A stretch of DNA of 64,000 nucleotides. Source: Gordonia crocea. Lineage in GTDB: Bacteria; Actinomycetota; Actinomycetes; Mycobacteriales; Mycobacteriaceae. The translations under genes were made by a program, and so were the position numbers. Of this stretch, positions 1,215 to 60,087 are shown one piece after another. A model generated the notes under the pieces. It saw only the letters and a list, made by a program, of their open reading frames with translations. It was not told where the DNA came from and searched no databases. Numbering within the stretch: position 1 is the stretch's first letter; every line of letters starts with the position of its first letter. The stretch is from positions 193,710 through 257,709 of the forward strand of contig NZ_BJOU01000019.1 in NCBI RefSeq assembly GCF_009932435.1. Direction: 5' to 3'.

Positions 1215-1334
1215 GGGCCCAGTCGGCGGAGATGAGGGCCCAGTCGACGAAGATGAGGGCCCAGTCGACGGAAAACGGGGCCCAGTCGGCGAAGATGAGG
1301 GCCCAGTCGACGGGAAACGGGGCCCAGTCGGCGG
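1215..1334. repeat. 21-bp tandem repeat array 1
   Basis: Six head-to-tail units of 21 bp (the last is cut short), each beginning GGGCCCAGTCG followed by RCG and seven more variable bases. The array fills the entire gap between the stop codons of the convergent genes ahcY and tmk; the tmk TAA touches the last unit directly. The length is a multiple of three, so some frames stay open through it and give artificial RAQSTxM or DWALxxV peptide repeats. Related arrays lie at 28.6, 30.8, 59.5 and 59.9 kb. Confidence 0.95.
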
Positions 1335-1976
1335 TTAGGCGAGGAGTTCGGCGGCCAGACCCGGCACCGGGTCGCCGCTGAGCACCCGCCACGGCGACAC
1401 CCACTGCGCAGCGGCGAGGCCTCGATAGGCCTCGTCGACGCGCGCCTGCAACGCCGCGTCGCGCTCGTAGCGGTCGCGGTCGCGGCCGGCATCGGTCTCG
1501 GCCCGGTCGACGGCCCGCTGCGCGGCCACCTCGACCGGCACGCCGAGAAACAGTTGCCAGTCGGGGACCGGCAGGTCGAAGCGGTCGAACTCCAGCGCGC
1601 GCACCCACTCGGTGGCGGCGACCGCCGCACCCGTCGACCGCTCGGCAACGCGCGCCGCGGTGTAGGCGGCGTTGGAGGCGACGTAGCGGTCGGCGACGAC
1701 GACGTCGTTCTCGGCGATCAGCGAGCGCAGCGCCGGTGCCGCCTCCCGCCGGTCGAGGGCGAAAAGCAGCGCCATCGCGTACGCGCTGTCGGTGACGTCG
1801 CCGTGGAAGCCGCGCAATGCCTCGGCGCTGAGATCGGCATGCACGGATTCGCCGTAGCGGGGAAAGGCGATGGTGGCCACGCGAACCCCGTCGGCCTCCC
1901 ACCCTCGGCGCAGCCCGTCGACGAGGGTGCGTTTCCCGGCTCCGTCGATTCCCTCGACGGTGATGAAAGTTGCCAC
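1335..1976 (-). CDS. tmk: thymidylate kinase
   Basis: Phosphorylates dTMP to dTDP in the thymidine nucleotide pathway. The 213-residue product begins with the P-loop ITVEGIDGAGKRTLV, contains the DR(Y) motif region DVVVADRYVASNAAYTAAR, and matches the mycobacterial Tmk in length and layout, including FPRYGESVHADL and the ALFALDR-type segment. I chose the GTG at 1974-1976 because translation from there begins two residues before the conserved core; the longer open frame upstream has no family similarity and runs toward mtrA. It is convergent with ahcY, divergent from mtrA, and its stop abuts repeat array 1. Confidence 0.94.
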   Translation of the reverse strand: MATFITVEGIDGAGKRTLVDGLRRGWEADGVRVATIAFPRYGESVHADLSAEALRGFHGDVTDSAYAMALLFALDRREAAPALRSLIAENDVVVADRYVASNAAYTAARVAERSTGAAVAATEWVRALEFDRFDLPVPDWQLFLGVPVEVAAQRAVDRAETDAGRDRDRYERDAALQARVDEAYRGLAAAQWVSPWRVLSGDPVPGLAAELLA

Positions 1977-2084
1977 GGTGCACGACCCTACCGAGTGCGC
2001 ACGGCCGTGTCCGGCGGTGCCCGGGCAGACGTGATGGCGCGCGTTGCGCCGTCGTCGGCCCGGCGCGTCGATACCGCCCAAAAG

Positions 2085-2100
2085 GTCACGGAAGTGTCAC
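2085..2100 (+). promoter_or_regulatory. possible MtrA direct-repeat box upstream of mtrA
   Basis: Two GTCAC motifs start 11 bp apart (2085-2089 and 2096-2100) immediately before the mtrA ATG. MtrA is known to bind direct repeats of GTCAC-like elements spaced about one helical turn. Autoregulation is an inference; the site also overlaps the expected ribosome-binding region. Confidence 0.4.
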
Positions 2101-2101
2101 T

Positions 2102-2788
2102 ATGGAGCGCATGAAGCCACGTGTCCTCGTCGTCGATGACGATGCCGCTCTCGCGGAGATGCTGACCATCGTGCTTCGCGGTGAGGGCTTCGAGCCGTTC
2201 CACGTCGCCGACGGGACCCAGGCGCTGACCGCGGTGCGTGAAATCCGACCCGACCTCGTGTTGCTCGACTTGATGCTGCCGGGGATGAACGGCATCGACG
2301 TCTGCCGCGTGCTGCGCCAGGACTCGGGTGTGCCGATCGTGATGCTGACCGCCAAGTCCGACACGGTCGACGTGGTGCTGGGGCTTGAATCCGGCGCCGA
2401 CGACTACATGGTCAAGCCCTTCAAGCCCAAGGAACTGGTGGCGCGCATCCGGGCCCGGCTGCGCCGCACCGACGACGAGCCCGCCGAGATGCTGTCGATC
2501 GGCCCGGTGGAGATCGACGTGCCGGCGCACAAGGTGACCCGCGACGGACAGCCGATCTCGTTGACCCCGTTGGAGTTCGACCTCCTCGTCGCGCTCGCGC
2601 GCAAGCCCCGCCAGGTGTTCACCCGCGACGTCCTGCTCGAGCAGGTGTGGGGCTACCGGCACCCGGCTGACACGCGCCTGGTGAACGTGCACGTGCAGCG
2701 GCTGCGCGCCAAGGTGGAGACGGATCCGGAGAACCCGGAGATCGTCCTGACCGTGAGGGGTGTCGGCTACAAAGCCGGGCCGCCGTGA
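2102..2788 (+). CDS. mtrA: DNA-binding response regulator MtrA
   Basis: Essential OmpR-family response regulator partnered with the MtrB kinase; in mycobacteria it controls cell division, wall metabolism and replication genes. The 228-residue product has a receiver domain (about 1-120) with acidic residues in VLVVDDD, the phospho-acceptor Asp56 in LLDLMLPG and Lys in [12 protein letters not shown], then a winged-helix DNA-binding domain (about 130-228) ending [11 protein letters not shown]. It is near identical in layout to the M. tuberculosis protein, which is also 228 residues. The start is the ATG at 2102; a longer open frame upstream has no homology. The stop overlaps the GTG start of mtrB by four bases, so the two are translationally coupled. 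Confidence 0.97.
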
Positions 2789-4452
2789 CCGAGCGTTCCG
2801 GTCGGGGCCGCGCCTCCCGTCCGCGCCGCCCCAACAGTGCCGCGGTCCGGCTGCGTCGAACCCTGACCACCCTGGGCCACCGCTTCGGCGGGGTCTGGCG
2901 GCGCTCCCTCCAACTGCGCATCGTCGTATCGACCCTCGCACTGTCGTTGGTCGTGCTGCTCATTTTGGGATTCGTCCTGATGTCGCAGATCACCAACAGC
3001 CTGCTCGACGCCAAACTGGGTGCCGCGGAAGAGGAGATCGACCGGGCCCGCGTCGTCGTCGAGCGCGACCTGGCCAGTCCCGATCCCAGTACCCCGGTGA
3101 TCGCCCGGCTGCGCCAGACCCGTGCCCTGCTGACCGAGCGCGACACCGGCGAATCGGGCAGCGGGTCGCGCGCGGTCGGCGCCTTCGACACGGTGCTCCT
3201 CGTGCGCAGCCCCGGCGCGAGCACCGACGACACCGGCGTCGGACCGGTCGCCGCGATCCCGCAGAACCTGCGCATGATGATTCAGAGCGGGCAGGTCGCC
3301 TACCAGTATTCGAAGGTGGAGACGACCGGTGGGGCGAACACCGCCGCCCTGTTGATCGGCACCCCGACGAATGCGGCGGTCCCCGGACTGGAGCTGTACC
3401 TGGTCTTCCCGTTGAGCGCCGAGGAGGACACGGTCACCCTGGTGCTGCGGACGTTGGCCACCGGCGGCGTCGTCCTCCTGGGGTTGTTGGCGGCGATCGC
3501 CTGGTTGGTGTCGCGCCAGGTCGTGCTCCCGGTGCGGTCGGCGGCCCGGGTGGCAGTGCGCTTCGCCAGCGGCCGGCTCTCCGAGCGGATGCCGGTGCGC
3601 GGTGAGGATGACATGGCGCGGCTGGCGATGGCGTTCAACGACATGGCCGAGAGCCTGCAGCGGCAGATCACCCACCTCGAGGAGTTCGGCGGCCTGCAGC
3701 GCCAGTTCACCTCCGACGTCTCCCACGAGTTGCGGACCCCGCTGACCACCGTGCGGATGGCTTCGGACCTGCTCTACGAGGGCCGCGACGACCTCGACCC
3801 GGTGCGCAAACGCTCGGTCGAGCTGCTCGACAAGGAGCTCGACCGGTTCGAGACCCTCCTCACCGAACTGCTGGAGATCTCCCGCCACGACGCGGGCATG
3901 GCCGAACTCGCGGCCGAGCAGATGCCGATGACGATTCCCATCGATGCTGCGCTGCAGACCGTGCGCCACCTCGCCGACGAGACCGGGACCGAACTGGTCA
4001 TCGACCTCCCGGCGGAGCCGGTGGTGGCCGAGATCGACCCGCGCCGCGTCGAGCGCATCTTGCGCAACCTGCTCGCCAACGCGATCGACCACTCCGAGCA
4101 GCGCCCTGTCACACTGACGATGCGGACCGACGGCGATGCGGTGGCGGTCACCGTCCGCGACCGCGGAGTCGGGTTGCGCCCCGGAGAGGAGAAGTTGGTG
4201 TTCAACCGGTTCTGGCGCTCGGACCCGTCGCGCTACCGGCGTTCCGGCGGCACCGGGCTCGGATTGGCGATCAGCGTCGAGGACGCCCACCTGCACGCCG
4301 GGCGGTTGGAGGCGTGGGGAGAACCGGGGCAGGGGGCGAACTTCCGCCTCACCCTGCCGCTCAAGCGGGGGCACAAGCTCCTGGGCAGCCCGTTGCCGTT
4401 GCGCCCGGTCGACGTCCGGACGTCGGGGCCGACGACGGGGGACGGCCGGTGA
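2785..4452 (+). CDS. mtrB: sensor histidine kinase MtrB
   Basis: Membrane sensor kinase that phosphorylates MtrA. The 555-residue protein has a basic cytoplasmic N-terminus, a first membrane helix around residues 45-70 ([19 protein letters not shown]), an extracytoplasmic sensor region to about 225, a second helix ([15 protein letters not shown]), a HAMP linker, the dimerisation/phosphoacceptor helix [18 protein letters not shown] with His about residue 314, and an ATPase domain with N box [16 protein letters not shown] and [10 protein letters not shown]. Starts at a GTG that overlaps the mtrA stop (GTGA), and its own stop overlaps the start of lpqB in the same way, defining a tightly coupled mtrA-mtrB-lpqB operon. 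Confidence 0.96.
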
Positions 4453-6257: not shown

Positions 6258-6292
6258 TTCTACTGACCCGGGACGTTGGGTACGGCGGCGCC

Positions 6293-6997
6293 TCAGTCGG
6301 CGGCCGCGATCGCGAGGACCACCGCCACCGGCACGCCGCGGCGGGCGAGGATTCGCACCGATTCGGCCGCGGTGCTCCCGGTGGTGACGACGTCGTCGAG
6401 GAGCACGACGACGTCGTCGGGCGAAAGTTCCAGCGACCGTAGGTGATTGGTGTCGCACCGGATCGAGCCGTGGAGGTTCGCCCGGCGGGCGCCGGCATCG
6501 AGGCCGGCCGAGTCGCGCACCCAGCCGCCGGTGTGCAACACCGGTGCGACGACCACCCGCGAGCCCAGGCGGCGCGCGGCGGCGCGCGCGTACGCCGTCA
6601 CCGGATCGCCTCCGCGTCGGCGGGCCGCGACGGCGCGCGTGGGTGCGGGGACCAGGACGAGGCGCGGCGCGTCGGGCAGTTCCCGCCACCGGAAGAGGGT
6701 GACCGCGGCACGCGCCAGGGAGTGTCCGATCGGGTCGACGAGGTCGCGGCGCCCGTGTTCCTTGACGGCGATGATCGCGGCGCGCAGCGGGCCGCGGTAG
6801 GGGCCCAAGACCCAGACGGCGGCCGCGACGGGGGTCGCCGGCTCGACGAGGCGCGGGACGTCGGCGAGGCTGCGCGCGCAGCGCGGGCACCACGGCGTCT
6901 CGGGGGTGCCGCAGCCGCCGCAGACCACGGGGGCGACCAGATCGGCCAGCGCGCGTGCCAGCTCGGCGGGCGTGAATCGATGGGTCGACCCCTCCAC
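6293..6997 (-). CDS. ComF family phosphoribosyltransferase-like protein
   Basis: A 234-residue member of the ComF family, homologous in position to Rv3242c. The N-terminus has a four-cysteine zinc-ribbon pattern (CGGCG then CPRC), and the C-terminal half has the type I phosphoribosyltransferase PRPP loop VVVLLDDVVTTGSTAAE. ComF proteins act in DNA uptake in naturally competent bacteria, but their substrate is unknown and competence is not established here, so only the fold can be asserted. The gene is convergent with lpqB and divergent from hpf. Start is a GTG at 6995-6997 just before the zinc ribbon. Confidence 0.85.
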   Translation of the reverse strand: MEGSTHRFTPAELARALADLVAPVVCGGCGTPETPWCPRCARSLADVPRLVEPATPVAAAVWVLGPYRGPLRAAIIAVKEHGRRDLVDPIGHSLARAAVTLFRWRELPDAPRLVLVPAPTRAVAARRRGGDPVTAYARAAARRLGSRVVVAPVLHTGGWVRDSAGLDAGARRANLHGSIRCDTNHLRSLELSPDDVVVLLDDVVTTGSTAAESVRILARRGVPVAVVLAIAAAD

Positions 6998-7159
6998 CCG
7001 AGCCCCCCTCGTCGGCCGATGATCACAATCACACCATTGCGGGCGCGTTCAGTGGGGCAAAACCTGGCAGGCCGACGGGGAGGCGACTACGGTCGAGATC
7101 AACATCCCCGCCCCGCACACGGAGGCGCTACCTGGGAGGTGAGGCCGCTGACACTTCGG

Positions 7160-7179
7160 TGCCAGCCGCCCGGCTGGCA
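7160..7179 (+). promoter_or_regulatory. hairpin in hpf 5' leader
   Basis: TGCCAGCC and GGCTGGCA form a perfect 8-bp stem with a four-base loop, 43 bases upstream of the hpf start and ahead of its AGGAGGA ribosome-binding site (7211-7217). There is no U-tract, so it looks like an RNA leader element rather than a terminator. The roughly 220-bp intergenic stretch 6998-7222 otherwise holds only the divergent promoters. Confidence 0.5.
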
Positions 7180-7222
7180 TAGCTAGATCGTTCGAGTTGT
7201 TCCGCCAGTAGGAGGAAGTTGT

Positions 7223-7969: not shown

Positions 7970-7974
7970 CGAGG

Positions 7975-8124: not shown

Positions 8125-10905
<2,781 letters not shown>

Positions 10906-10962
10906 ATCGACGGTATTTCGGATCGCAGGGAACCGAACGGCGTTGCGCTGCGTCCCAGTTAT

Positions 10963-26577: not shown

Positions 26578-27225
26578 ATGCGCGTCGTCATCGTCGGCGG
26601 CCACGGGAAGGTCGCCCTGCGGGCAGCCCGATTGTTGACCCATCGGGGAGACGAGGTCACCGCCTTGATCCGGCGGGCCGATCAGGCCGACGAGGTCGCG
26701 GAGACCGGCGCCGAGCCGGTGCTCTTCGACGTCGAGGCGACGACCGAGTCGGCTTTTGCCGAGGTCATCGGCGGTCATGACGCGATTGTGTGGTCCGCGG
26801 GTGCGGGCGGGGGCAACCCCGCCCGCACCTACGCGGTCGACCGTGACGCGGCGATCCGTTCGATGCGCGCGGCCGCGACGGCCGGCGTGCGCCGGTATGT
26901 GATGGTCTCCTATTACGGGGCCAGCACCCATCACGGTGTGCCCGAAGACAACTCGTTCTTCACCTACGCGGAGGCGAAGGCCGCGGCCGATGAATTCCTC
27001 CGCGGAACAGACCTGGACTGGACGATCCTGGGACCCAGCACGCTCACCGACGGTCCCGGTGGGGGAGTCGAGGTCGCCGAGGCCGGTTCGGCCACCGGGC
27101 AGGTCAAGGGCGCCGTCAGCCGGGACACGGTTGCGGCGGTCGTCGTCGCGGCCCTGCACGATCCCGCCACCATCCACCGCCAATTGGAGTTCAACGACGG
27201 TCCGAACGCCGTGGGAACCTGGTGA
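26578..27225 (+). CDS. NAD(P)-binding epimerase/NmrA-like protein
   Basis: A 215-residue atypical short-chain dehydrogenase of the NAD(P)H-binding (SDR_a5/NmrA-like) group. The Rossmann loop is VVIVGGHGKVALRAARLL, the central strand DAIVWSAGAG follows, a YxxxK-like YAEAK motif sits after VMVSYYGAST, and WTILGPSTLTDGPGGG is the typical substrate-cover segment. These proteins are usually putative NADPH sensors or reductases. It starts directly after the membrane protein gene and its stop overlaps the FAD-oxidase start, so it is in one operon. Confidence 0.82.
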   Translation: MRVVIVGGHGKVALRAARLLTHRGDEVTALIRRADQADEVAETGAEPVLFDVEATTESAFAEVIGGHDAIVWSAGAGGGNPARTYAVDRDAAIRSMRAAATAGVRRYVMVSYYGASTHHGVPEDNSFFTYAEAKAAADEFLRGTDLDWTILGPSTLTDGPGGGVEVAEAGSATGQVKGAVSRDTVAAVVVAALHDPATIHRQLEFNDGPNAVGTW

Positions 27226-28595
27226 CCGGGTTCACCACGGATGCATTTGGGCGAATCGTCGGAGCGAACCAGGTTCTGACCGACCCCGATCTGATGCGGG
27301 GCTACCTCGCGGACTGGACGGGGCGGCGCACCGGTGCCGCCGATGCGGTCGTGCGGCCCCGAACCACCGCGGAGGTGTCCGCCGTGGTTGCCGAATGCGC
27401 GCGCACCGGCGTCGCGGTCGTCGTCCAAGGGGGCAACACCGGTCTGGTCGGCGGATCTGTTCCGGAGGTTGCGGGTGGGCCCGTCGTCGTCTTGTCGACG
27501 GCGCGGATGACCGATGTCGAGGCCGTCGATCCGGTGGAGATGTGCGTCGGAGTCCAGGCCGGTGCCACGGTCGCCTCGATCGCGGCGGCGGCGGCAGCCG
27601 CGGGTACCCGGTTCGCGATCGATCTGGCCTCGCGCGACTCGGCCACCGCGGGCGGGATCGTGGCGACCAGCGCGGGTGGCATCCACGTGGTCCGACACGG
27701 CGGCACGCGGGCACAGGTGCTGGGGATCGAGGCGGTTCGCGCCGACGGCCGGGTCCTTCGCCGGTGGAGCCCGTTGCGCAAGGACAACGTCGGCTATGAC
27801 CTGCCCGGGCTGCTGGCCGGGAGCGAGGGCACGCTGGCGGTGATCACCGGGGTGTTGTTCGCGGTGGTCGATCAGCCGGGGCACACGGCGGCGGCGGTCG
27901 TCGGCATCGACACTGCCGACGAGGTGTTCACCCTGATCCGGCAGATTCGGCGGGCCGGGCTCGTGATCGAGGCCGTGGAATTGATGACGCGGGCCGGTGT
28001 CGCGCTGGTCGTCGAGGCAGGGGCGCGGCCGGCGTTGGCCGGGTCGAGTGGGTATCAGGTGTTGCTGGAGGTATCCGGTGCGGACCCGGTGCAGCGCCTG
28101 GCCGCCGTGCTGGCCGACAGCGGCGTCGCCGACGCGGTCGTCGACGAGGGGCCCGCGCGGCCGCTGTGGGAACTGCGCGAACGCCACACCGAGACGATTG
28201 CCGCGGCCAGCACGACGGTGCCGGTCAAGCTCGACGTCACCATCCGCCGACGTGATCTGGACGCCTTCCTCGCCGATCTGGACGAGTTGATCGCGTCGTT
28301 GCCCTACCCCTGCCGGTTGGTCGTCTTTGGCCACGCCGCCGACGGAAACCTCCACGTGAACCTGCTCGACGTCCCCGTCGAACAGCAGGCCGAGGTGGCC
28401 CACCGGGTTTTGGAGCGGGTTGTGGCGCGCGAGGGCAGTGTGAGCGCCGAGCACGGCATCGGCCGAGACAAACGGGAGTGGCTCTCGGTCGTCCGTGACG
28501 AGGTCGACGTGGCGACCATGCGTGCGGTGAAGCAGGCCTGGGACCCCGACGGCCGGCTCAATCCCGGCGTCCTCTTTCCCGACGCCCCCGACTAA
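27222..28595 (+). CDS. FAD-linked oxidase (GlcD/D2HGDH-like)
   Basis: A 457-residue vanillyl-alcohol-oxidase-fold flavoprotein. The FAD domain contains VVVQGGNTGLVGGSVPE, SRDSATAGGIVATSAGG and LLAGSEGTLAVIT; the C-terminal cap has VKLDVTIRR, FGHAADGNLHVN and the closing SAEHGIGRDKREWL. These marks define the family of D-lactate, glycolate and D-2-hydroxyglutarate dehydrogenases that oxidise D-2-hydroxy acids. The precise acid is not predictable. GTG start overlaps the stop of the previous gene (GTGA). Its stop codon abuts repeat array 2, which separates it from a convergent membrane protein. Confidence 0.9.
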   Translation: MTGFTTDAFGRIVGANQVLTDPDLMRGYLADWTGRRTGAADAVVRPRTTAEVSAVVAECARTGVAVVVQGGNTGLVGGSVPEVAGGPVVVLSTARMTDVEAVDPVEMCVGVQAGATVASIAAAAAAAGTRFAIDLASRDSATAGGIVATSAGGIHVVRHGGTRAQVLGIEAVRADGRVLRRWSPLRKDNVGYDLPGLLAGSEGTLAVITGVLFAVVDQPGHTAAAVVGIDTADEVFTLIRQIRRAGLVIEAVELMTRAGVALVVEAGARPALAGSSGYQVLLEVSGADPVQRLAAVLADSGVADAVVDEGPARPLWELRERHTETIAAASTTVPVKLDVTIRRRDLDAFLADLDELIASLPYPCRLVVFGHAADGNLHVNLLDVPVEQQAEVAHRVLERVVAREGSVSAEHGIGRDKREWLSVVRDEVDVATMRAVKQAWDPDGRLNPGVLFPDAPD

Positions 28596-28597
28596 CC

Positions 28598-28737
28598 GTC
28601 GACTGGGCCCTCTTTCCCGTCGAGTGGGCCCTCGATCCCGTCGAGTGGGCCCTCGATCTCGTCGAGTGGGCCCTCGATCTCGTCGACTGGGCCCCCGATC
28701 TCGTCGACTGGGCCCTCGATCCCGTCGACTGGGCCCC
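28598..28737. repeat. 21-bp tandem repeat array 2
   Basis: Seven 21-bp units in the orientation GTCGACTGGGCCC plus eight variable bases; some units have GTCGAG in place of GTCGAC. The array begins two bases after the stop of the FAD-linked oxidase and ends one base before the stop codon of the convergent membrane-protein gene, so it occupies the whole intergenic space. It is the reverse-complement orientation of arrays 1 and 3. Confidence 0.95.
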
Positions 28738-28738: not shown

Positions 28739-29221
28739 CTACGCCCAGGCGACGACGACCCCGACGACGAGGACCACGACGGTTCCCACCTCGCCGACGA
28801 TCAGCGCGATCATGAAACCGCGGACCAGACCACCGGGCCTCGGATGGAATTGGTTGTCGGTGTCGCGCAACGCACCGTGCAACACATAGCTGGCGATCGC
28901 AGCGACGAAGAAGAACACCGCGACGGCGACACATACGGCATTGACCCACGCCGGCCACGCAGAAAGCGCGGTGAGCGCTGCCAGAACGAGCGTCGCGAAC
29001 GAATACATGAGGGCCGCGCGGTGGGCGATGTCGACGTAGACATGCGCCTGTCCGTTCGGCGACGTCAGGATTTGCCGGTACTTCCACACCCCCAACAGCA
29101 TCGCCCACGCGAGGATGAGGCCCGCGGCGACGACCGTGGCGATGGTGACGGCGTCGAGCTGGTCGATCAGTGCACCGCGCTCGCCGGCGACGTGGCAGAT
29201 TGCGCGGGAATCGATAGGCAT
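28739..29221 (-). CDS. integral membrane protein of unknown function
   Basis: A 160-residue protein with four predicted membrane helices: VTIATVVAAGLILAWAMLLG, AALMYSFATLVLAALTALSA, AVCVAVAVFFFVAAIASYVL and ALIVGEVGTVVVLVVGVVV. A conserved-looking loop DTDNQFHPRPGGL lies between helices 3 and 4. I do not recognise the family. ATG 29221 is preferred over a GTG further upstream because it leaves the shared promoter gap with the divergent monooxygenase. The stop abuts repeat array 2. Confidence 0.7.
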   Translation of the reverse strand: MPIDSRAICHVAGERGALIDQLDAVTIATVVAAGLILAWAMLLGVWKYRQILTSPNGQAHVYVDIAHRAALMYSFATLVLAALTALSAWPAWVNAVCVAVAVFFFVAAIASYVLHGALRDTDNQFHPRPGGLVRGFMIALIVGEVGTVVVLVVGVVVAWA

Positions 29222-29313: not shown

Positions 29314-30843
29314 GTGGCTGAGGACAACGTTATCGCGCGCGGGGGCGCCGAGAGTGCGAGGGCACCGGAGTTCGACGCGGTGATCGTCGGTGCCGGATTC
29401 GGTGGGATGGGCGCGGCGATCGAGTTGAAGCGTCAGGGTGTCACCAACATCGCCATCGTCGAGCGCGAAGACGATCTCGGCGGTACCTGGCACGTCAACC
29501 ACTACCCAGGGCTGGCGGTGGACATCGCCTCGGTCACCTACAGCTATTCGTTTGAACCCAACCCGTACTGGTCGCGGCTCTTCGCGCCCGGCGCAGAGCT
29601 CAAGCGGTATGCCGAGCACGTGGCTGACAAATACGACCTGCGCCGCCATATGACTTTCGGTGAGCAGGTTGCGCGCGCCGAATGGGACGAGACGAATTCC
29701 ATGTGGCGCGTTTTCAGCGAGGATGGCACCGAGCGAACCGCACGCTTTCTGCTCACGGCGACGGGATTCCTGTCCCAACCGCGTACCCCCGACATCCCGG
29801 GGATCAAGACGTTTGCCGGCAAGGTCATCCACACGACGGCGTGGGAGGACGGCCACGACTTCACCGGTGAACGCGTGGCCGTCATCGGAACCGGCGCGAC
29901 GGCGGTGCAGTTGATCCCCGAGATCGCCAAACGGGCAGCAGCGCTGACGGTCTATCAGCGCACCGCGATCTGGGTCGTGCCCAAAGTCGACTTCGCCATT
30001 CCGCGGGCGGTGCAGAAGTTGTTTGCCCGTGTGCCGGCCACGCAGAAGGCGGCACGTCTGGTGAACACGGCGATGCTTGAGCTCCTCATGGTGACCGGCG
30101 TGCTCCACTACAAGCAGTTCAAATTGGGAAACAAGGGCGCCGAGCGCCTCGCCAAGGCACATCTGCGAAACCAGATTGCCGACGAGGAGCTGCGTGCGAA
30201 GCTCACCCCCAACTACGACTTCGGGTGCAAGCGGCCGACTTTCTCCAACGAGTACTTTGCGACCTTCACCAAGCCGAATGTGCACTTGGAGACGTCGTCG
30301 ATCGTCAAGGTCGATCCCGACGGTCTCCTGACTGCCGACGGGGAGAAGACGGAGATCGACACCTTGGTGCTGGCCACCGGATTCGACCTGTGGGACACCA
30401 ACTTTCCCGCTTTCGAGATCCGCGGCCGGGACGGCAAAGACCTCGGCAAGTGGTGGCGTGCCGAACGTTTCCAGGCTTACGAAGGGATCACGGTGCCGAA
30501 GTTTCCGAACTTCCTCACGCTCAACAGTCCCTACTCGTACAGCGGACTGTCGTACTTCACGACGATCGAAGGGCAGATGCGCCACATCGCCCGCTTGCTC
30601 GGCGAGTTCAAACGTCGAGGTGCCGTCACGTTCGAAGTGACCGACGACGCGAATACGCGCTTCCTCGACGACGTGACGCGCCGCCTGGAGTCGTCGGTGT
30701 TCTATCGCGGCGACTGCTCGACGTCGCGCAGCTATTACTTCAACCACGCGGGCGAGGCGACCCTGCTCCGACCGCGCTCGACCCCGGGGACGCTGCGCGA
30801 GATGGCAACCTTCCCGCTCTCGGACTACGAGTTCACCCGCTGA
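29314..30843 (+). CDS. flavin-containing / Baeyer-Villiger type monooxygenase
   Basis: A 509-residue FAD- and NADPH-dependent monooxygenase. FAD loop VGAGFGGMGAAIELKRQG, then DLGGTWHVNHYPGLAVD; the NADPH loop is VIGTGATAVQLIPEIAKR; the Baeyer-Villiger fingerprint region FAGKVIHTTAWEDG has W-E where many BVMOs have WP or WD. It resembles the mycobacterial Rv3049c/Rv0892 group more than EthA. Such enzymes oxidise ketones, sulfides or aromatic side chains; the substrate is unknown. GTG start follows CGAGGAATC. Codon use is slightly less GC-biased than the backbone genes, and it lies in the accessory stretch. Stop is two bases from repeat array 3. Confidence 0.88.
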   Translation: MAEDNVIARGGAESARAPEFDAVIVGAGFGGMGAAIELKRQGVTNIAIVEREDDLGGTWHVNHYPGLAVDIASVTYSYSFEPNPYWSRLFAPGAELKRYAEHVADKYDLRRHMTFGEQVARAEWDETNSMWRVFSEDGTERTARFLLTATGFLSQPRTPDIPGIKTFAGKVIHTTAWEDGHDFTGERVAVIGTGATAVQLIPEIAKRAAALTVYQRTAIWVVPKVDFAIPRAVQKLFARVPATQKAARLVNTAMLELLMVTGVLHYKQFKLGNKGAERLAKAHLRNQIADEELRAKLTPNYDFGCKRPTFSNEYFATFTKPNVHLETSSIVKVDPDGLLTADGEKTEIDTLVLATGFDLWDTNFPAFEIRGRDGKDLGKWWRAERFQAYEGITVPKFPNFLTLNSPYSYSGLSYFTTIEGQMRHIARLLGEFKRRGAVTFEVTDDANTRFLDDVTRRLESSVFYRGDCSTSRSYYFNHAGEATLLRPRSTPGTLREMATFPLSDYEFTR

Positions 30844-30845: not shown

Positions 30846-30968
30846 GGGCCCAGTCGACGAGATTGAGGGCCCAGTCGACGGGAATGAGGGCCCAGTCGAC
30901 GGGGATGAGGGCCCAGTCGGCGGGATCGAGGGCCCAGTCGACTGGGATGAGGGCCCAGTCGGCGGGGG
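30846..30968. repeat. 21-bp tandem repeat array 3
   Basis: Six units in the orientation GGGCCCAGTCG plus ten bases, filling the space between the stop codons of the monooxygenase and the convergent hemerythrin-like gene. The last unit runs into the complement of the hemerythrin TGA. Same orientation on the + strand as array 1. Confidence 0.95.
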
Positions 30969-31397
30969 TCAGGCCCGGTCGCAGACCCACCCGTCGGGCA
31001 TCGAGCCGGCTTCGAGGAAGTCGCGCAGCTCGCTCGACGACTCCTCGTCGAGCGCGGTGTCGGCCTGAGGGTAGAGGATCATCTCCTCTTTGGGGTTGTG
31101 CGCCTCGATCTGCGCGACGAGATCGCGGCGCAACGAGCCGATCCGCGGGTCGGCGGGGTCCTCGCGCAGGATCGGCTCGAGCTCGTCCATCAGGTGCCAC
31201 ATCTGGCCGTGCTCGAGCAGCATCACCATGACGGGGCCGAGCATTCCCGCTTCGCGCAGCGGCGGGAACAGCAGTTCCTCTTCCAGGTAGATGTGGCGTC
31301 GCAGGGCGGCAATGGCATCCAGCATGGTGCCCTCGCCGTCGATCCCCGCATCGATGTCGACATGCTCTTGTTGTAGAGCCTGAGCAAGAGTGGTCAC
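30969..31397 (-). CDS. hemerythrin HHE domain protein
   Basis: A 142-residue four-helix protein of the hemerythrin-like HHE family, expected to bind a di-iron centre. Candidate ligands in order are His12 (QEHVD), His35 and Glu39 (RRHIYLEEE), His63 and His68 (EHGQMWHLM), and His100 with Glu104 (AHNPKEEMILYP). Roles reported for relatives include sensing or scavenging of nitric oxide, oxygen or peroxide. GTG start at 31395-31397 has GGGAGG upstream, and a clear TATAAT -10 sits at 31433-31438 on the same strand. Its stop touches repeat array 3. Confidence 0.85.
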   Translation of the reverse strand: MTTLAQALQQEHVDIDAGIDGEGTMLDAIAALRRHIYLEEELLFPPLREAGMLGPVMVMLLEHGQMWHLMDELEPILREDPADPRIGSLRRDLVAQIEAHNPKEEMILYPQADTALDEESSSELRDFLEAGSMPDGWVCDRA

Positions 31398-37407: not shown

Positions 37408-37662
37408 TTAGACGGTGCTGCGCGCGCGGGTGCGGGCGGTGCGGCGCTTCAGCGCGCGGCGCTCGTCCTCGCTCATCCCGCCCCAGACACCGGCGTCCTG
37501 GCCGGAGTCCAGCGCCCAGGTCAGGCACTCGGCCGTCACCGGGCAGCGGTTGCACACAAGCTTCGCGTCGGCGATCTGGGCGATCGCCGGACCGCTCGTC
37601 CCCACCGGGAAGAACAGCTCGGGGTCTTCGTCGCGACAGATTGCCTTGTGGCGCCAATCCAT
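37408..37662 (-). CDS. whiB1: transcriptional regulator WhiB1
   Basis: Essential iron-sulfur WhiB-family regulator; its 4Fe-4S cluster reacts with nitric oxide and it binds the SigA subunit. The 84-residue protein has the four cluster cysteines Cys9, Cys37, Cys40 and Cys46 (ICRDED and LVCNRCPVTAEC), the turn GVWGGMSEDERRAL and a basic C-terminal tail RRTARTRARS. It is nearly identical to M. tuberculosis WhiB1 (Rv3219). A CRP-type site lies about 130 bases upstream, in keeping with Rv3676 control of whiB1 in mycobacteria. Confidence 0.97.
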   Translation of the reverse strand: MDWRHKAICRDEDPELFFPVGTSGPAIAQIADAKLVCNRCPVTAECLTWALDSGQDAGVWGGMSEDERRALKRRTARTRARSTV

Positions 37663-37784
37663 TTCTACAGATCTCCTCTGGGCACGCGTCTAGGCGCGCC
37701 CCTCATTAAGCCTCGGGGGCGTTGGCTGGTTCATTTTGGCTGTTCGCACAAGCGTCGACTACCGTTCATCCGCTCGTGGTTCCT

Positions 37785-37800
37785 TGTGAATACTTTCACG
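37785..37800 (-). promoter_or_regulatory. CRP-type binding site upstream of whiB1
   Basis: TGTGA-ATACTT-TCACG matches nine of ten bases of the CRP/Rv3676 consensus TGTGA-N6-TCACA. It lies 123 bases upstream of the whiB1 start within the AT-richer intergenic gap 37663-37885. In M. tuberculosis whiB1 is known to be controlled by Rv3676 through such sites. The gap otherwise holds the whiB1 leader. Confidence 0.65.
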
Positions 37801-37885
37801 AATCGAGCCGAAGTCAATAGGATTCTATTAACACGTGGGCAACGTCACTGTGAACGCGGGGTTCGGATTTGTGTGCTAACGGGTG

Positions 37886-38845
37886 CTAGCGGCCCTGCTC
37901 AGCGGGTGCGACGACGGCCAGCGCGTCGGCACGATACCCGAAAGTCATCTCCGCGCGGTCACCGGTGAAGTCGCCGTCGATCTGCGTCGGCAGGGGTGTC
38001 GGGGAGGAGAAGGACACGGCGGTCACGTCGTCGTCGCGGAAGAGGTGCCCGGCGCGCGGGTCGGCCCCCACCAGCAGCCGGGTCGCCAGCGGCAGGTTGC
38101 GCGCGACGCTCATCGTCGACGAGGCGAAGACGCCGAGGCCGCCGGCCAGCGAGGTGGTCGGGTTGGTCTCGATGACCCGCCCGCCCAAGAACGTCCACGG
38201 CGTGGTGTTGAGGACGAAGGCGAAGCTGGTGTCGGTCAGCGTCGTGGTCGTCTGGTCCCGGTCGGTGACGGTGACGGTGAAGCGCTGCTGGTCGGCGCGG
38301 TTGCGCAGGAAGGTCACCACCGTGGTGAACAGGTATCGGCCCGGGGTGGCCGCCTTTCCGCGGTGGCGCTTGGCCTCCATGGCGGCGACCACGCGGGCGT
38401 CGATCCCCATGCCGCAGTTGAAGAGGAACCAGCGGTCGTCGGTGACACCCAGGTTCACCCGGCGCTGGGCGCCCGATTCCAACAGTTCGATCAGTTGGGC
38501 GGTGGCCCGCAGCGGATCGGCGTCGATGCCCAGCGCCCGCGCGAAGACGTTGGCACTCCCGCCGGGGATGATGCCCAACCGTGGCTGCGTGGCGGGCGGC
38601 GGGTCATCGGGGCGGCCGAGCAGCCCGTTGACGACCTCGTTGACCGAGCCGTCGCCGCCGTGGACGACGACCGCGTCGTAGCCACCGTCGTCGAGCGCCC
38701 GCCGCGCGAACTCCTCGGCGTGCCCCCGGTGGGTGGTCTGCTCGACCGTGAGGTCCATTCGGGAACCCAGGGTGTGGGCAAGGGTGTCGCGGCCGGCCGG
38801 CGTGGTGGCGGTCGCGTAGGGATTGACGATGAGCATGGCGCGCAC
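37886..38845 (-). CDS. diacylglycerol kinase family protein (Rv3218-like)
   Basis: A 319-residue lipid kinase-like protein. The catalytic domain has LIVNPYATATT at the start, the nucleotide motif VVVHGGDGSVNEVVNGLLG and LGIIPGGSANVFARALGI; the second beta-sandwich domain ends LPTQIDGDF. Family members phosphorylate diacylglycerol or sphingosine-type lipids; the substrate is unknown here. I chose GTG 38845 (VRAMLIVNP), though the ATG three codons later would also work. Divergent from a small membrane protein gene. Confidence 0.85.
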   Translation of the reverse strand: MRAMLIVNPYATATTPAGRDTLAHTLGSRMDLTVEQTTHRGHAEEFARRALDDGGYDAVVVHGGDGSVNEVVNGLLGRPDDPPPATQPRLGIIPGGSANVFARALGIDADPLRATAQLIELLESGAQRRVNLGVTDDRWFLFNCGMGIDARVVAAMEAKRHRGKAATPGRYLFTTVVTFLRNRADQQRFTVTVTDRDQTTTTLTDTSFAFVLNTTPWTFLGGRVIETNPTTSLAGGLGVFASSTMSVARNLPLATRLLVGADPRAGHLFRDDDVTAVSFSSPTPLPTQIDGDFTGDRAEMTFGYRADALAVVAPAEQGR

Positions 38846-38910
38846 GGAACACCACCCTACGTCTGTGCCCCGACCGCCGTACAACGACGCGGGGGCAATA
38901 CCCTTGGGCC

Positions 38911-39324
38911 ATGCCTCTGATAACCCCCGTTCCGCGCCCCATACGGTGGGCCGGTATCTCGATCGCCGCCCAGGGGTGCGTCGGCGTGGTCGCCGCCGCG
39001 ATCCTGGTGGTCCGGGCACTGGGCGGCCACCACGAGGACTTCGCCAGCGGCTACGGGCTGGCCCTGTGGTGCGGGTTCATCGGTCTGGGCGTGCTGGCCG
39101 GCGGGATCGCGCTGCTGCGCGGGAAGCGGTGGGGCCGCGGGATCGGCGTCGTGGCGCAGCTGCTGCTGCTGCCGGTCGCGTACGCCCTGCTGACCGACAG
39201 TCATCTGCCGTTCCTCGGTGTGCCACTGGGGTTCTGGGCGCTGGGCACGCTCGGGGCGCTCTTCACGACGGCCTCGCTGACCTGGGCCGCCGGACCGGAT
39301 GCCTCGACCGACCTCGAACCGTAA
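38911..39324 (+). CDS. membrane protein (Rv3217c-like)
   Basis: A 137-residue protein with four predicted membrane helices (IRWAGISIAAQGCVGVVAAA, LALWCGFIGLGVLAGGIALL, GIGVVAQLLLLPVAYALL, LGVPLGFWALGTLGALFTTA), orthologous in sequence character and position to Rv3217c. The loop LRGKRWGRGIG is the most distinctive. No function known. Ten bases before parA-like gene, probably co-transcribed. Confidence 0.8.
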   Translation: MPLITPVPRPIRWAGISIAAQGCVGVVAAAILVVRALGGHHEDFASGYGLALWCGFIGLGVLAGGIALLRGKRWGRGIGVVAQLLLLPVAYALLTDSHLPFLGVPLGFWALGTLGALFTTASLTWAAGPDASTDLEP

Positions 39325-57100: not shown

Positions 57101-57492
57101 CGGTTCCCGACGAGGATCTCGCCGAGCTGATCACCCGGTTCGAGGCGTCCCGGTGGGCCAATCGCACGCCCGTCGAAGTCGAGGTGCCGTTCGAGACGGT
57201 GATCGGGTCCACGGTGATCCGCGGACGCATCGATGCGGTCTTCGCCGAACGCGGCGACGACGGGCAGCAGCGGTGGATCGTCGTCGACTGGAAGACCGGC
57301 GCGGTGCCCGAACCGGCGAAGCGCGCGTCCCTCAACATCCAGTTGGCCGCGTACCGGATCGCATGGGCGAAACTCGTCGGCGCGCACGTCGATCAGGTCC
57401 GCGCAGCCTTCCACTATGTGCGGCCGGACTTCACGCTCGAGCCCGACGACTTGCCCGATGCGACCTCGCTGGCCGCACTGCTCGCGCGATAG
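54139..57492 (+). CDS. adnB: helicase-nuclease subunit AdnB
   Basis: Lead motor and second nuclease of AdnAB. The 1117-residue protein has a complete UvrD-type motor: Walker A AGAGAGKTETMASRVV, LTFTRKAASELGARI, Walker B LLDEYQDTGHSQ, AVGDPIQSIYGWRGASAANL, VHAAKGLEWDVVAIPHV and YVALTRAKASLFIS. The C-terminal nuclease has RRGTAFHAWVERRFG, VRGRID-type VIRGRIDAVFAERG and VVDWKTGAVPEPAKRASLNI, with the catalytic Asp and Lys intact. Orthologue of Rv3201c. ATG 54139 lies inside the end of adnA, so the subunits are translated in a coupled way. Confidence 0.95.
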   Translation: MTELIPATSIAAALGLPRPTPEQVAVIEAPLEPVLVVAGAGAGKTETMASRVVWLVVNRFAGPEEVLGLTFTRKAASELGARIRRRLATLAGAPVLAEWDVDGSLRARLAGADPEISTYHAYAGRLIADYGLLLPVEPTSTLLSETELWQLAFSVVANHPGDLATNKVPSGVTEAVLKLYSDSAEHLVDPDSLASAGQRLYDLVDTLPKGLRQRDEPSRKLRDVQAVIDERRALLPLVAELSRRMREQGALDFGSQMSLAARLVTRHPEVVAAERASVRAVLLDEYQDTGHSQRILLRALFGSGGGPVAVTAVGDPIQSIYGWRGASAANLPRFATDFPRPDGTPAQRLELLTSWRNAAHALTLANSASDELRRRGVPVSILRPRPDAPLGTVAMALTETVLDERTWIAERIAELYRTAAEAGTAPPTTAILVRRNEDSAPLAAELEALGIPAEVVGIGGLLHVPEVEDVVATLRLMADPMAGSAAMRLLTGARWQLGAVDIAALWRRARELAAGSRVAQMPLDTPEQLAQALAATVPDELVDDAGIADALVDPGDPARYSTEGYTRIRRLGGQLEQLRRRIGQPLPELVADVEQTIGVAVEAQIRARRMRGATTGREHLDAFAGYVAAYADKPGATLPGLLAFLDTAETIEKGLEPGRVEVAEQRVQILTVHAAKGLEWDVVAIPHVCGGIFPSGRSEGTWLGSARELPAELRGDLADPDRGGGSGEGFPRLSLDAAGDRKELESALEDHKAAIAQRRLEEDRRLLYVALTRAKASLFISAHHWSMGSSKPRGISEFYTELLDVVSSTMADPGVDSTGMSVDIAAPEPDPSAENPLAAHVISAQWPADHLGERRPRETAAAALVLDRLTARAQPSLFDGVGEAAEPVSVDDDVDRWRAEVDVLLAEHAAANQAGVDVALPAHLSVSQLVDLDTDEATFAQRLRRPVPFKPNALARRGTAFHAWVERRFGASSLLDIDELPGAADETAVPDEDLAELITRFEASRWANRTPVEVEVPFETVIGSTVIRGRIDAVFAERGDDGQQRWIVVDWKTGAVPEPAKRASLNIQLAAYRIAWAKLVGAHVDQVRAAFHYVRPDFTLEPDDLPDATSLAALLAR

Positions 57493-57514
57493 CGGTGCTA
57501 GATTCCCACACGTG

Positions 57515-58606
57515 ATGTTCGCGAAGGGCCGGGTGAAGGCCCGCCTGCGGCGCCGGACCCGCGGCGCCCTGTCGACCGAGCCGGAATACGCGCTCGTCAA
57601 CATCGTGCGCATCCCCGATGCGCAGATGAGTCCGGCGCGCGCGATCGGGCGGCGCGTGCTGTTCGCGCTGCTGGCGCTGTTGTTCACCTCGCTGGTGGTC
57701 TTCATCGACCGTGAGGGATACCGCGATGCCACCGGCAACCCGCTGTCGTACCTCGACTCGCTCTACTACTCGGCGGTGACCCTGTCGACCACGGGATACG
57801 GCGACGTCACGCCGGTCTCGCCGGGCGCGCGACTGGTCAACATCATCGTCATCACCCCATTGCGCGTCCTGTTCCTGATCGTCTTGATCGGTACCACCCT
57901 GGAAGTGCTGACCGAGCGGTCGCGCCAGGCGCTGAGAATCCAACGCTGGAGGGCTACGTTGCGCAACCACACAGTTGTCGTCGGGTTCGGCACGAAGGGC
58001 CAGACCGCCGTCGACGCGATGATCGGCGACGGGGTCAAGCCGTCGGAGATCGTCGTCGTCGACCCGTCACAGGCCGCACTCGACGCCGCCGAGGCACACG
58101 GCCTGGTCACGGTGCGCGGCGATGCCACCAAGTCCGACGTGTTGCGGCTCGCCGGTGCGGCCCACGCCGCGAGCATCATCATCGCGACGAGCCGTGACGA
58201 CACGGCGGTCCTCACCGCGCTGTCGGCGCGCGAGATGAACAAGACCGCCACCATCGTCGCGTCGATCCGCGATTCGGAGAACACGCACGTCATGAAACAG
58301 TCCGGCGCGAACTCGGTCGTCGTGACGTCGGAGACCGCGGGCCGACTCTTGGGGATCGCGACCCAGTCGCCCAGCGTCGTGGAGGTTTTCGAGGACCTCC
58401 TCACCCCGGACGAGGGATATGCCATCGCCGAGCGGCCGGTCGACCCGACCGAAGTCGGCGGATCCCCGGCGCACACCGTCGACATCGTCCTGGGATTGGT
58501 GCGCGACGGGAAGCTCTACCGCATTGGCGAACCGGGGGTCGAGGCGATCGAGCTCGGCGACCGCCTGCTCTACGTCCGCCGCGGTCCCGCCGACAAGGAC
58601 CGCTGA
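57515..58606 (+). CDS. potassium channel with RCK/TrkA-N domain (Rv3200c-like)
   Basis: A 363-residue two-helix potassium channel. The first membrane helix is VLFALLALLFTSLVVFI, the pore has SAVTLSTTGYGDVTPVSPG with the selectivity filter TTGYGD, the second helix is LVNIIVITPLRVLFLIVLIG, and an RCK domain follows with HTVVVGFGTKGQTAVDAMI and a late TrkA-C-like region. Cytoplasmic nucleotide or ion binding to the RCK would gate it. GTG 57512 or ATG 57515 may be used. Twenty-two bases after adnB; orthologue of Rv3200c. Confidence 0.9.
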   Translation: MFAKGRVKARLRRRTRGALSTEPEYALVNIVRIPDAQMSPARAIGRRVLFALLALLFTSLVVFIDREGYRDATGNPLSYLDSLYYSAVTLSTTGYGDVTPVSPGARLVNIIVITPLRVLFLIVLIGTTLEVLTERSRQALRIQRWRATLRNHTVVVGFGTKGQTAVDAMIGDGVKPSEIVVVDPSQAALDAAEAHGLVTVRGDATKSDVLRLAGAAHAASIIIATSRDDTAVLTALSAREMNKTATIVASIRDSENTHVMKQSGANSVVVTSETAGRLLGIATQSPSVVEVFEDLLTPDEGYAIAERPVDPTEVGGSPAHTVDIVLGLVRDGKLYRIGEPGVEAIELGDRLLYVRRGPADKDR

Positions 58607-58609
58607 CCA

Positions 58610-59527
58610 ATGGCATTCGAGATGCCGCAGCCACCGCTGTTCTCCCGCTCCACCGTCGACCGGGGCGGCGAGTTCCGCGGTAACCGCGGGGCCGCGGTGC
58701 AGGGCTGGGACAGTGCCCGGGTGTTGCTGATCGATCGTCGGGGCCGGTTCGGCGTCGGCGAGAGCGGTGGCCTGCGCTGGGTGTCGGGGCCGACGGTCGC
58801 GCCGTCGCCGCCCGAGGACCTCGTGTTGCTCGGCGTCGAGGGCGAGGTGTTCTTGTGGGCGCGCCGCGTCGACGACGTGGCCGAGCCGCTCGGCGACGCG
58901 CGATCGGCCGGCCACCACCTCGGCGGCGACGATGCCGGGTTGCTGGTGACCGCGCTGGGGATGCTCAACTGGCACGACCATGCGGAGTTCTCGCCAACGA
59001 CCGGGTCGCCGACCTCGGTGGAGAAGAGCGGATGGGTCCGGCGTGATCGGTCATGCGGCCGGGAGGAGTTCCCGCGCACCGATCCGGCGATCATCACCGT
59101 CGTCCACGACGGCGCCGACCGGATTCTCCTCGGACGGCAGGCGATGTGGCCCGAGCGCTGGTATTCGACGCTGGCGGGATTCGTCGAGCCGGGGGAGTCG
59201 TTGGAGCAGTGCGTGGTGCGCGAGGTTCGCGAGGAGGTCGGCATCACCGTCACCGAGCCGCGCTATCTCGGCAGTCAGCCGTGGCCGTTCCCGCGGTCGC
59301 TAATGGTCGGGTTCGCCGCGATCGGCGACCCCGACGAGCCGCTGCAGTTCCTCGACGGCGAGATCGCCGATGCCGTCTGGTTCACCCGCGAGCAGGTGCG
59401 CGACGCGCTCGCGGCGGGGGAGTGGGCGGCGCCCGACGACGATGATGCCGCGTCGGTACCGCTGCGCCTGCCCGGCTCGGTCTCGATCGCCCGCGCGATG
59501 GTCGAGACCTGGGCCGCCGCCTCCTAA
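58610..59527 (+). CDS. nudC: NAD(+) diphosphatase NudC
   Basis: Hydrolyses NADH/NAD into NMN(H) and AMP and can remove NAD caps from RNA. The 305-residue protein has an N-terminal domain, a middle region where the E. coli zinc-ribbon cysteines are not conserved, and the NUDIX box GFVEPGESLEQCVVREVREE followed by VG, then the family signature SQPWPFPRSLM. The intact SQPWPFP differs from the SQQWPFP I recall for M. tuberculosis. Three bases after the channel gene. Orthologue of Rv3199c. Its stop codon abuts repeat array 4. Confidence 0.93.
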   Translation: MAFEMPQPPLFSRSTVDRGGEFRGNRGAAVQGWDSARVLLIDRRGRFGVGESGGLRWVSGPTVAPSPPEDLVLLGVEGEVFLWARRVDDVAEPLGDARSAGHHLGGDDAGLLVTALGMLNWHDHAEFSPTTGSPTSVEKSGWVRRDRSCGREEFPRTDPAIITVVHDGADRILLGRQAMWPERWYSTLAGFVEPGESLEQCVVREVREEVGITVTEPRYLGSQPWPFPRSLMVGFAAIGDPDEPLQFLDGEIADAVWFTREQVRDALAAGEWAAPDDDDAASVPLRLPGSVSIARAMVETWAAAS

Positions 59528-59529
59528 CC

Positions 59530-59613
59530 GCCGACTGGGCCCTCTTTCTCGTCGAGTGGGCCCTCGATTTCGTCGACTGGGCCCTCGATCTCGTCGACTG
59601 GGCCCTCGATCGT
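59530..59613. repeat. 21-bp tandem repeat array 4
   Basis: Four units in the orientation GYCGACTGGGCCC plus eight bases, followed by a decayed fifth (GCCAACTGG). It begins two bases after the nudC stop, with TAACCGCCGACTGGGCCC identical to the junction at tmk. It is inverted relative to array 5; the two flank mrx1. Confidence 0.93.
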
Positions 59614-59628
59614 GCCAACTGGACGGCG

Positions 59629-59655
59629 GGAACAACTGGCTGCCCATGTGGTGTT
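59629..59655 (+). promoter_or_regulatory. possible SigH promoter of mrx1
   Basis: GGAAC (59629-59633), a 19-base spacer and GTT (59653-59655). The spacer is one base longer than the sigH promoter's. The predicted start would be within a few bases of the mrx1 ATG, giving a nearly leaderless mRNA. Mycoredoxin genes in actinobacteria are commonly SigH controlled. Confidence 0.5.
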
Positions 59656-59664
59656 ATCAATGGC

Positions 59665-59916
59665 ATGAGTACCGATGCTCCAGCCCTGACGATGTACACG
59701 ACGACCTGGTGTGGTTACTGCAACCGACTCAAGACCGGCCTGAAGAGTCTTGGGGTCACGTGGGACGAGGTGAATATCGAGGAGGATCCGGCTGCGGCCG
59801 ACTTCGTCGGCGGCGTCAATAACGGAAACCACGTCGTTCCGACGGTGAAATATGCCGACGGATCTACCGCGACCAATCCGTCGATCGCCGATGTGCGCGC
59901 GAAACTGGGCCTCTGA
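59665..59916 (+). CDS. mrx1: mycoredoxin Mrx1
   Basis: An 83-residue glutaredoxin-fold oxidoreductase that reduces mycothiol mixed disulfides. The active site is TTTWCGYCNRLKTGL (CGYC) and the cis-proline region HVVPTVKYADGSTATNPS completes the fold. Orthologue of Rv3198A. It lies between inverted arrays 4 and 5, with a SigH-like promoter directly in front, so it is a self-contained unit rather than part of the nudC transcript only. Confidence 0.94.
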   Translation: MSTDAPALTMYTTTWCGYCNRLKTGLKSLGVTWDEVNIEEDPAAADFVGGVNNGNHVVPTVKYADGSTATNPSIADVRAKLGL

Positions 59917-59919
59917 TTA

Positions 59920-60087
59920 GGGCCCAGTCGACGGGATCGAGGGCCCAGTCGGCGGGAAGTAGGGCCCAGTCAGCGGGATAGAGGGCCCAGTCAGCGGGAT
60001 AGAGGGCCCAGTCGACGAGGATGAGGGCCCACTCGGCGGGAAAGAGGGCCCAGTCGGCGGAGATGAGGGCCCACTCGACGACGGGGA
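59920..60087. repeat. 21-bp tandem repeat array 5
   Basis: Eight units in the orientation GGGCCCAGTCG plus ten bases; two units have CACTCG and two CAGTCAG, so this is the most diverged array. It begins three bases after the mrx1 stop and ends 34 bases before the uvrD2 start, so it is the only array lying directly upstream of a gene start. Confidence 0.94.

Follow-up and report, generated by a model that had tools for sequence, protein, structure and literature searches.

Polar tandem arrays of a 21-bp repeat at gene 3′ ends in Gordonia crocea and the respelling of their units among relatives

Several kinds of short repeat lie dispersed between genes. MIRU are mycobacterial tandem repeats with a unit of about 40–100 bp, inserted at overlapping stop and start codons within operons. 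REP and BIME sequences are extragenic, occur in many copies 3′ of genes, often as inverted pairs, serve as sites for insertion sequences (IS) and are associated with RAYT transposases. The cyanobacterial STRR and the Neisseria dRS3/NIME are short repeats at many intergenic places, dRS3 being an insertion site as well, and the eukaryotic foldback elements have inverted ends made of short tandem direct repeats, with a cargo that is variable or missing. Here a family of 21-bp repeats is described that came to light in a stretch of 64,000 nucleotides from Gordonia crocea (contig NZ_BJOU01000019.1, positions 193,710–257,709), called the window throughout. The genome holding the window (G000) comprises 3.78 Mb in 19 contigs, one of which is referred to as C1. 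The explanation that best fits the material as a whole, which we hold tentatively and at somewhat less than an even chance, is that of a dispersed, homogenising family of polar arrays at gene 3′ ends that are likely protein-bound boundaries, a function that we infer.

The initial annotation described five arrays of 6, 7, 6, 4 and 8 units in the window, 31 in total, and all are present according to the core matches, TRF (period 21 in 5/5) and the sequence. The window contains 33 matches to GGGCCCAGTCG with at most one mismatch, 31 of them within the arrays and two standing singly at 3039 and 45188, against a mean of 5.1 and a maximum of 12 in the shuffled window sequence. The 21-bp unit with a conserved core was rightly recognised; the core is better written GGGCCCASTCGRCG, with G or C at position 8 and A or G at position 12. 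The copies are not confined to the window, since exact GGGCCCAGTCG occurs 423 times in G000, compared with 16 times for the reversed control pattern. Clusters of at least two cores in the fetched G000 DNA numbered 69, and after two were dropped as chance (window 45.2 kb and C1:1348701) 67 arrays remained; a generic core, given below, yields 66 for the spacing and polarity counts. Successive cores are 21 bp apart in 250 of 256 spacings and never 42 or 63 bp apart, and the generic core gives a single 42-bp spacing among 250, single-core matches (95 and 9) being ignored in the spacing count.

The arrays are anchored at stop codons. Two kinds of G000 DNA were read, an unselected sample of 464 kb (C1:1–400000 and the window), taken regardless of arrays, and 40 array-centred regions of C1 chosen for containing the core; the enrichment test is carried by the 16 arrays of the unselected stretches only. 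A called stop lies within 4 nt of the array edge in 12 of these 16 arrays (C1 8/11, window 4/5), while 2.4% of intergenic insertion points fall that close to a stop (binomial, about 7e-17). The edges were set at the core start and at the core end plus 4 nt, and overlaps of up to 4 nt were accepted, so the null is not an exact mirror of the count; the gene calls come from our own codon-usage caller, which is crude. Placement relative to stops is thus not random, and it persists at 8/11 when the window, the place of discovery, is excluded. Among the 53 arrays outside called genes, 25 stand between two gene 3′ ends. Convergent gaps in G000 are short (median 28 bp, n = 70), so that an inserted array fills the gap; the exact spacing to the stop is not explained thereby.

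A large part of the G. crocea arrays have a defined outer end at a stop codon. Read in the array's own orientation, this end consists of GGGCCCAGTCGRCG and 0–1 nt followed by a reverse stop triplet, which lies 3 or 4 nt past the 11-bp core in 29 of 67 arrays (offset 4 in 22, offset 3 in 7); 23 of the 29 triplets coincide with the stop of a called gene. Of the arrays with the exact boundary, 25/29 have AGTCGGCG as their outermost unit, a sequence shared by 96/254 other units (Fisher, 5e-7). At the inner end a stop triplet abuts or overlaps GGGCCC in 20/67 arrays, although such triplets may stem from the unit itself, many units ending in TGA. The core varies little, whereas spacer positions 15–20 differ in 34–66% of comparisons between arrays. 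Conservation of the core is in part fixed by the search, which allowed at most one mismatch, and independent signs of constraint are the rarity of 42- and 63-bp spacings and three positions that played no part in finding the arrays (13, 14 and 21). Units resemble each other more closely within one array than across arrays.

The genes read into the exact boundary are unusual at their ends. The boundary stop is TAA in 19 of 29 cases, compared with 33 of 319 background genes of G000. In genes read into the outer end, the last five codons carry C at the third position at frequencies of 0.65–0.86 (n = 37), against 0.41–0.56 in a comparison set of 167 other convergent genes; the last codon ends in G at a frequency of 0.05 in the first group and 0.27 in the second. 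Gene-wide codon use of the genes read into the outer end is normal (0.50, n = 23, against 0.49). In Williamsia the last codon is likewise rich in C (0.85 against 0.44, n = 20), without TAA. This bias is most simply described as avoidance of G over the final 18 nt that precede the array.

The arrays are also polar. On the sense strand of the upstream gene the preferred order is the stop followed by CGYCGASTGGGC, repeated. Polarity was counted from arrays that have a called stop within 80 nt of just one of their two sides, the outer (3′) side being scored against the inner, and the ratio is 27:6 in G000 and 37:5 in Williamsia, whose loci had been picked with a three-unit pattern. In G000, neighbours separated by no more than 6.5 kb are oriented '-+' in 18 cases, enclosing 48 bp to 5.9 kb, '+-' in one and '++' in one, the last being an array split by an IS. 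Williamsia neighbours within 1 kb, after de-duplication, give 19 '-+' and 3 '+-'. In the window, arrays 2 and 3 form an outward-facing inverted pair 2.1 kb apart that encloses two genes, and arrays 4 and 5 form an inverted pair around mrx1 whose arrangement is kept in the genome of a sister species, G006. These outward-facing pairs are an addition to the initial annotation, which had not mentioned them.

Among relatives the core is retained and the unit is spelled differently. The exact GGGCCC family is expanded in G000 only, both among 59 Gordonia genomes and among 401 genomes of the taxonomic family; in the latter set its two-core pattern counts 447 in G000, 3 in G006, 2 in G054 and none elsewhere. 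The generic core GCCCASTCGRC(G), repeated every 21–22 bp, is common to Gordonia and Williamsia, with different spacers. Its two-core pattern with a period of 19–24 is found in 16/59 Gordonia genomes, with counts of 437 (G000), 219 (G006), 121 (G043), 89 (G019) and 59 (G009) against 0–2 for the reversed control. The GGGCCC unit, nearly private to G. crocea, is one species' version of an older family that spans genera. Within the taxonomic family the generic pattern occurs in 27/401 genomes and 8/31 genera, five of them with only 1–2 matches, which may be chance, as the reversed control also gives 1–2 in a few genomes; outside Gordonia it is strongest in Williamsia (7/8 genomes sampled). In the fetched DNA, GCCCA is preceded by GG in 222 of 225 two-core matches of G000, where GG had partly guided the selection, and by GT in 64 of 76 of G006; the whole-genome two-core counts show the same split without selection. 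Other Gordonia spellings include a 19-bp unit in G011 and a 21-bp unit of GTGCGCACGCTCGGCG type in G049. Genome G158, placed in the window's own taxonomic family, carries an array of GGGCCCAGTCGACG type (L239, L241).

Beyond the taxonomic family, a phylum sample of 395 other genomes, with few close relatives and with the pattern limited to this core spelling, gave none, and a scan of viral contigs matched two stretches. Terrabacter aerolatus, which we take to lie outside the window's family, has three 21-bp units with the core GTGCCCACTCGACG (L288), by transfer or by chance.

The family turns over, and the same gene ends carry different units in different genomes. For instance, the FAD-linked oxidase junction has 7 units of 21 bp of the GGGCCC type in G000, 6 units of 21 bp of the GTGCCC type in G006, and 22-bp units in G009 (about 2) and G043 (3); all four arrays lie past the corresponding stop in identical orientation. 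G006 retains the inverted pair at nudC/mrx1/uvrD, built there from 22-bp units. At C1:220513 both boundaries are common to G000 and G006 (TGA before, CGRCGR and then TTA after), and the unit is GGGCCCAGTCGACGAGATTGA in one genome and GGTGCCCACTCGGCGTAGGTSA in the other. In the unselected stretches, with one transferred case left out, a G000 array is in place at 4/11 testable G006 arrays. That stops and orientation are shared while the unit differs means that sites can persist as the spelling changes genome-wide. The sites are thus partly old, but each species has rewritten the spelling, a change hard to bring about by mutating several hundred units independently.

The only GGGCCC array of G006 lies in a segment 98–99% identical to G000 C1:38227. 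This segment (G000 C1 about 37500–39000, L059; G006:C93:48700–50100, L194) contains the array in both genomes and was probably transferred recently, because the other orthologous array flanks are about 70–92% identical. Three further places are of note. G000 C1:219945–219995 (L068), opposite a G006 array, looks like the decayed relic of a 22-bp array. In G043 the tmk/ahcY gap (L130), the junction that holds array 1 in G000, has an inverted repeat with AAACCCAACACTTCGGGAC units, and the arrays around mrx1 (G043:C1:2694400–2695100, L167) are interrupted by another inverted repeat (GGTCTCGATACGGTTCCTCGCCCATGG...), perhaps of a further repeat family.

The arrays of the window and the genes that end on them are collected in Table 1. 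The initial annotation had eight gene ends on arrays and three arrays filling a convergent gap entirely. All eight stops lie 2–7 nt from the outermost 11-bp core, and arrays 1–3 occupy the whole gap. The end called that of a membrane protein is indeed on array 2, but the name is unverified, the predicted protein having no Pfam match. The listed ahcY open reading frame lacks its 5′ part, the profile match starting at profile position 94.

Table 1. Tandem arrays of the window and adjoining genes (distance: nt from stop to outermost 11-bp core)
Feature	Position	Strand	Stop	Distance	Basis
Array 1 (6 units of 21 bp) in the gap between the ahcY and tmk stops, convergent	1215..1334	+			TRF, core matches, sequence
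Array 2 (7 units) in the convergent gap of FAD-linked oxidase and unannotated protein	28596..28736	-			TRF, core matches
Array 3 (6 units) in the convergent gap of monooxygenase and hemerythrin gene	30846..30968	+			TRF, core matches
Array 4, 4 units, directly 3′ of nudC stop	59528..59611	-			TRF, core matches
Array 5, 8 units, 3′ of mrx1 stop	59919..60077	+			TRF, core matches
ahcY (adenosylhomocysteinase)	36..1208	+	1206-1208	6	TIGR00936, 494.0 bits, just below cut-off 497.6
tmk (dTMP kinase)	1335..1976	-	TAA, adjoining array 1	4	NF005923
FAD-linked oxidase	27222..28595	+	TAA	4	gene call, family profile
Unannotated protein	28739..29221	-	TAG, adjoining array 2	2	gene call
Flavin monooxygenase-like protein	29314..30843	+	TGA	2	gene call, family profile
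Hemerythrin-domain protein	30969..31397	-	TGA	7	gene call, family profile
nudC (NAD+ diphosphatase)	58610..59527	+	TAA	4	NF001299
mrx1 (mycoredoxin)	59665..59916	+	TGA	3	TIGR02200

Insertion sequences are found in the arrays as well. A 1.31-kb IS30-family element is present in G000 as four complete copies plus a single 28-bp end; its transposase matches NF033563 with 285.4 bits (cut-off 80; 5e-85) and has HTH_38 and rve domains. Each of the four full copies, like the 28-bp end, is located inside or directly beside an array of the 21-bp family, the copies (L093:2612–3922, L158–L161) being inserted in the GGGCCC or GTGCCC core with what appears by eye to be a short target duplication. For one copy the host array is of the GTGCCC type, and the corresponding G006 array is free of the IS. 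A different IS30-family element, 48% identical, lies in G049 within arrays of the GTGCGCACGCTCGGCG type (L327, L339); of its three matches two loci were read, both with arrays. Outside G000, 43 homologue matches to the IS were obtained; of the 27 Gordonia loci fetched, the two in G049 are beside arrays and 25 have no tandem cores, though most genomes of those 25 lack the generic core pattern anyway. Spread of the arrays by this element is unsupported, as the IS sits inside arrays and has four full copies only.

We infer a binding protein, a boundary function and a copying process from this organisation. A sequence-specific DNA-binding protein may occupy the cores, which lie two turns apart on one face of the helix. 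The outermost unit would then form a polar boundary that stops or insulates transcription from the upstream gene, by which convergent neighbours would be protected. A putative copying process, combining transposition-like spread with local tandem duplication, would seed and re-seed arrays and keep the unit uniform in each genome. For IS30-family elements the arrays serve as insertion sites. It is conceivable, though rather unlikely, that a self-spreading repeat has become an orientation-dependent, protein-bound gene-end signal, its code being rewritten genome-wide between sister species while some sites stay fixed, in concerted evolution with the binding protein.

A number of observations weigh against a protein-bound boundary. 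For 22/67 arrays of G000 neither side has a called stop within 60 nt, and several arrays overlap with called genes, given the crude caller. G006 (8:4) and a set of 24 arrays from other Gordonia (7:5) show weak polarity, and within 1 kb the pair orientation is weaker there too (7 '-+', 1 '--' and 2 '++' in G006; 4 '-+' and 2 '+-' in the others). Williamsia lacks the exact spacing to the stop, its distances ranging over 2–23 nt. No G000 array stands at the place of 7/11 testable G006 arrays, and the array is not essential at ahcY/tmk, because G006 manages with a 9-bp gap, empty of array, at that junction. The RNA folding described below is not needed by a purely DNA-level reading.

Alternatively, the arrays could be the ends of mobile elements, that is, terminal, outward-facing arrays in which transposase-binding sites stand in tandem, inserted beside stops and enclosing a cargo that varies or is absent, the single arrays being solo ends without a host role. 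The precise outer ends in 29/67 arrays and the conserved outermost unit are as expected, and so are the inverted '-+' pairs enclosing 48 bp to 5.9 kb, the one clean empty site (ahcY/tmk in G006), the same sites hosting different units across species, and the excess of TAA among the boundary stops (19/29 vs 33/319), as if the end carried its own stop. However, no transposase is linked to the arrays, the RAYT domain (Y1_Tnp, PF01797) was found in 0/59 Gordonia genomes with the control positive in 5/14, and the IS30 element inserts into arrays, which do not serve as its termini. By eye, no array was seen to be flanked by a target-site duplication, and many arrays are single. Overall we regard mobile-element ends as rather unlikely. 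Satellite-like repeats under neutrality, slipping and spreading but retained only in harmless places, between convergent genes, would agree with the short and presumably tolerant convergent gaps and with the greater likeness of units within arrays, as local duplication predicts; array presence also varies between species, and the relic in G000 opposite a G006 array, seen by eye, fits. Polarity, the exact outer end, the conserved outermost unit, the low variability of the core relative to the spacer and the sharing of the core by two genera are not predicted by neutrality, which makes it quite improbable as an account of the family.

Action at the RNA level, as terminators or processing sites in which neighbouring cores pair into hairpins or a C-rich sense strand loads Rho, was judged from folds of up to 20 unpaired arrays of at least three units per group, compared with shuffles. 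In G000 the RNA folds better than its shuffles on both strands (mean z -2.35 and -2.49, n = 20), the eight folds of window arrays giving z -1.6 to -4.1, and in Williamsia it does so on the sense strand (mean z -1.99, 45% below -2, n = 20; other strand 0.42). There is no excess in G006 (z -0.72 sense, -0.05 other, n = 20). G000 and G006 have a C-rich sense strand; that of Williamsia is G-rich (0.45 G, 0.24 C) in spite of the same polarity. Since the fold excess is absent in G006 and the Williamsia strand is G-rich, neither property spans all three lineages. An intrinsic terminator hairpin is rejected as a family-wide property on the first count, and a Rho-dependent rut site, which calls for a C-rich, G-poor strand, on the second. 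At tmk/ahcY in three other Gordonia (G045, G004, G013) the junction resembles ordinary hairpins by eye, as an RNA reading would have it. The fold excess in two of three lineages makes some role for RNA possible, but RNA-level termination or processing is a very improbable explanation of the family. What the lineages have in common is the core, the spacing of two helical turns and the direction, not the RNA properties, and therefore recognition of double-stranded DNA by a protein is favoured.

Selection or targeted insertion, as put forward in the initial annotation, gains from the exact boundary in part of the arrays, the conserved outermost unit and the polarity; a REP-like repeat in the strict, RAYT-driven sense is rejected in the absence of PF01797 from the 59 Gordonia genomes. 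CRISPR was discarded on account of the 21-bp period and of a variable part that is not unique to each unit, identical spacers being found. Rfam gave no match at the gathering score in the window. No description of the 21-bp repeat was found among the listed titles and abstract openings of the open-licence literature, which does not prove its absence from print; one core string appears there in three papers on unrelated topics (mushroom chemistry, neuroscience and insect polymerase chain reaction primers).

Dispersed repeats are common in bacteria, but a polar, stop-anchored family that is found in two genera and respelled between sister species at retained sites would offer a tractable system for how actinobacteria, in which classical U-tract terminators are rare, end and separate convergent transcripts. 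It would suit equally well the question of how, with no transposase known, short repeats come to spread through a bacterial genome and become uniform. Because one and the same site exists in nature empty, filled and respelled, both questions are directly testable.

Among the known repeats that come closest, MIRU likewise belong to a related family of bacteria, are dispersed in tandem between genes and make contact with stop codons. Nevertheless, the Gordonia unit measures 21–22 bp, below the length of the MIRU unit, and lies largely after the stops of convergent genes; its arrays are polar, form outward inverted pairs and differ in unit between species at one site. REP and BIME are approached in that the Gordonia repeat is short, extragenic, 3′ of genes, often in inverted pairs and used as an IS insertion site, but it consists of tandem direct repeats in 21-bp phase instead of a palindromic unit, with no RAYT in the 59 genomes. 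The inverted '-+' pairs and the fixed outer end in 29/67 arrays recall foldback elements, yet the arrays are bacterial, anchored at stops and in many cases single, with no transposase or target duplication shown. STRR and dRS3/NIME differ, by their description, in unit length, core and polarity. The inserted IS is a member of the IS30 family by its transposase profile (NF033563), and with four full copies against at least 67 arrays in the fetched part of the genome it is a user of the arrays.

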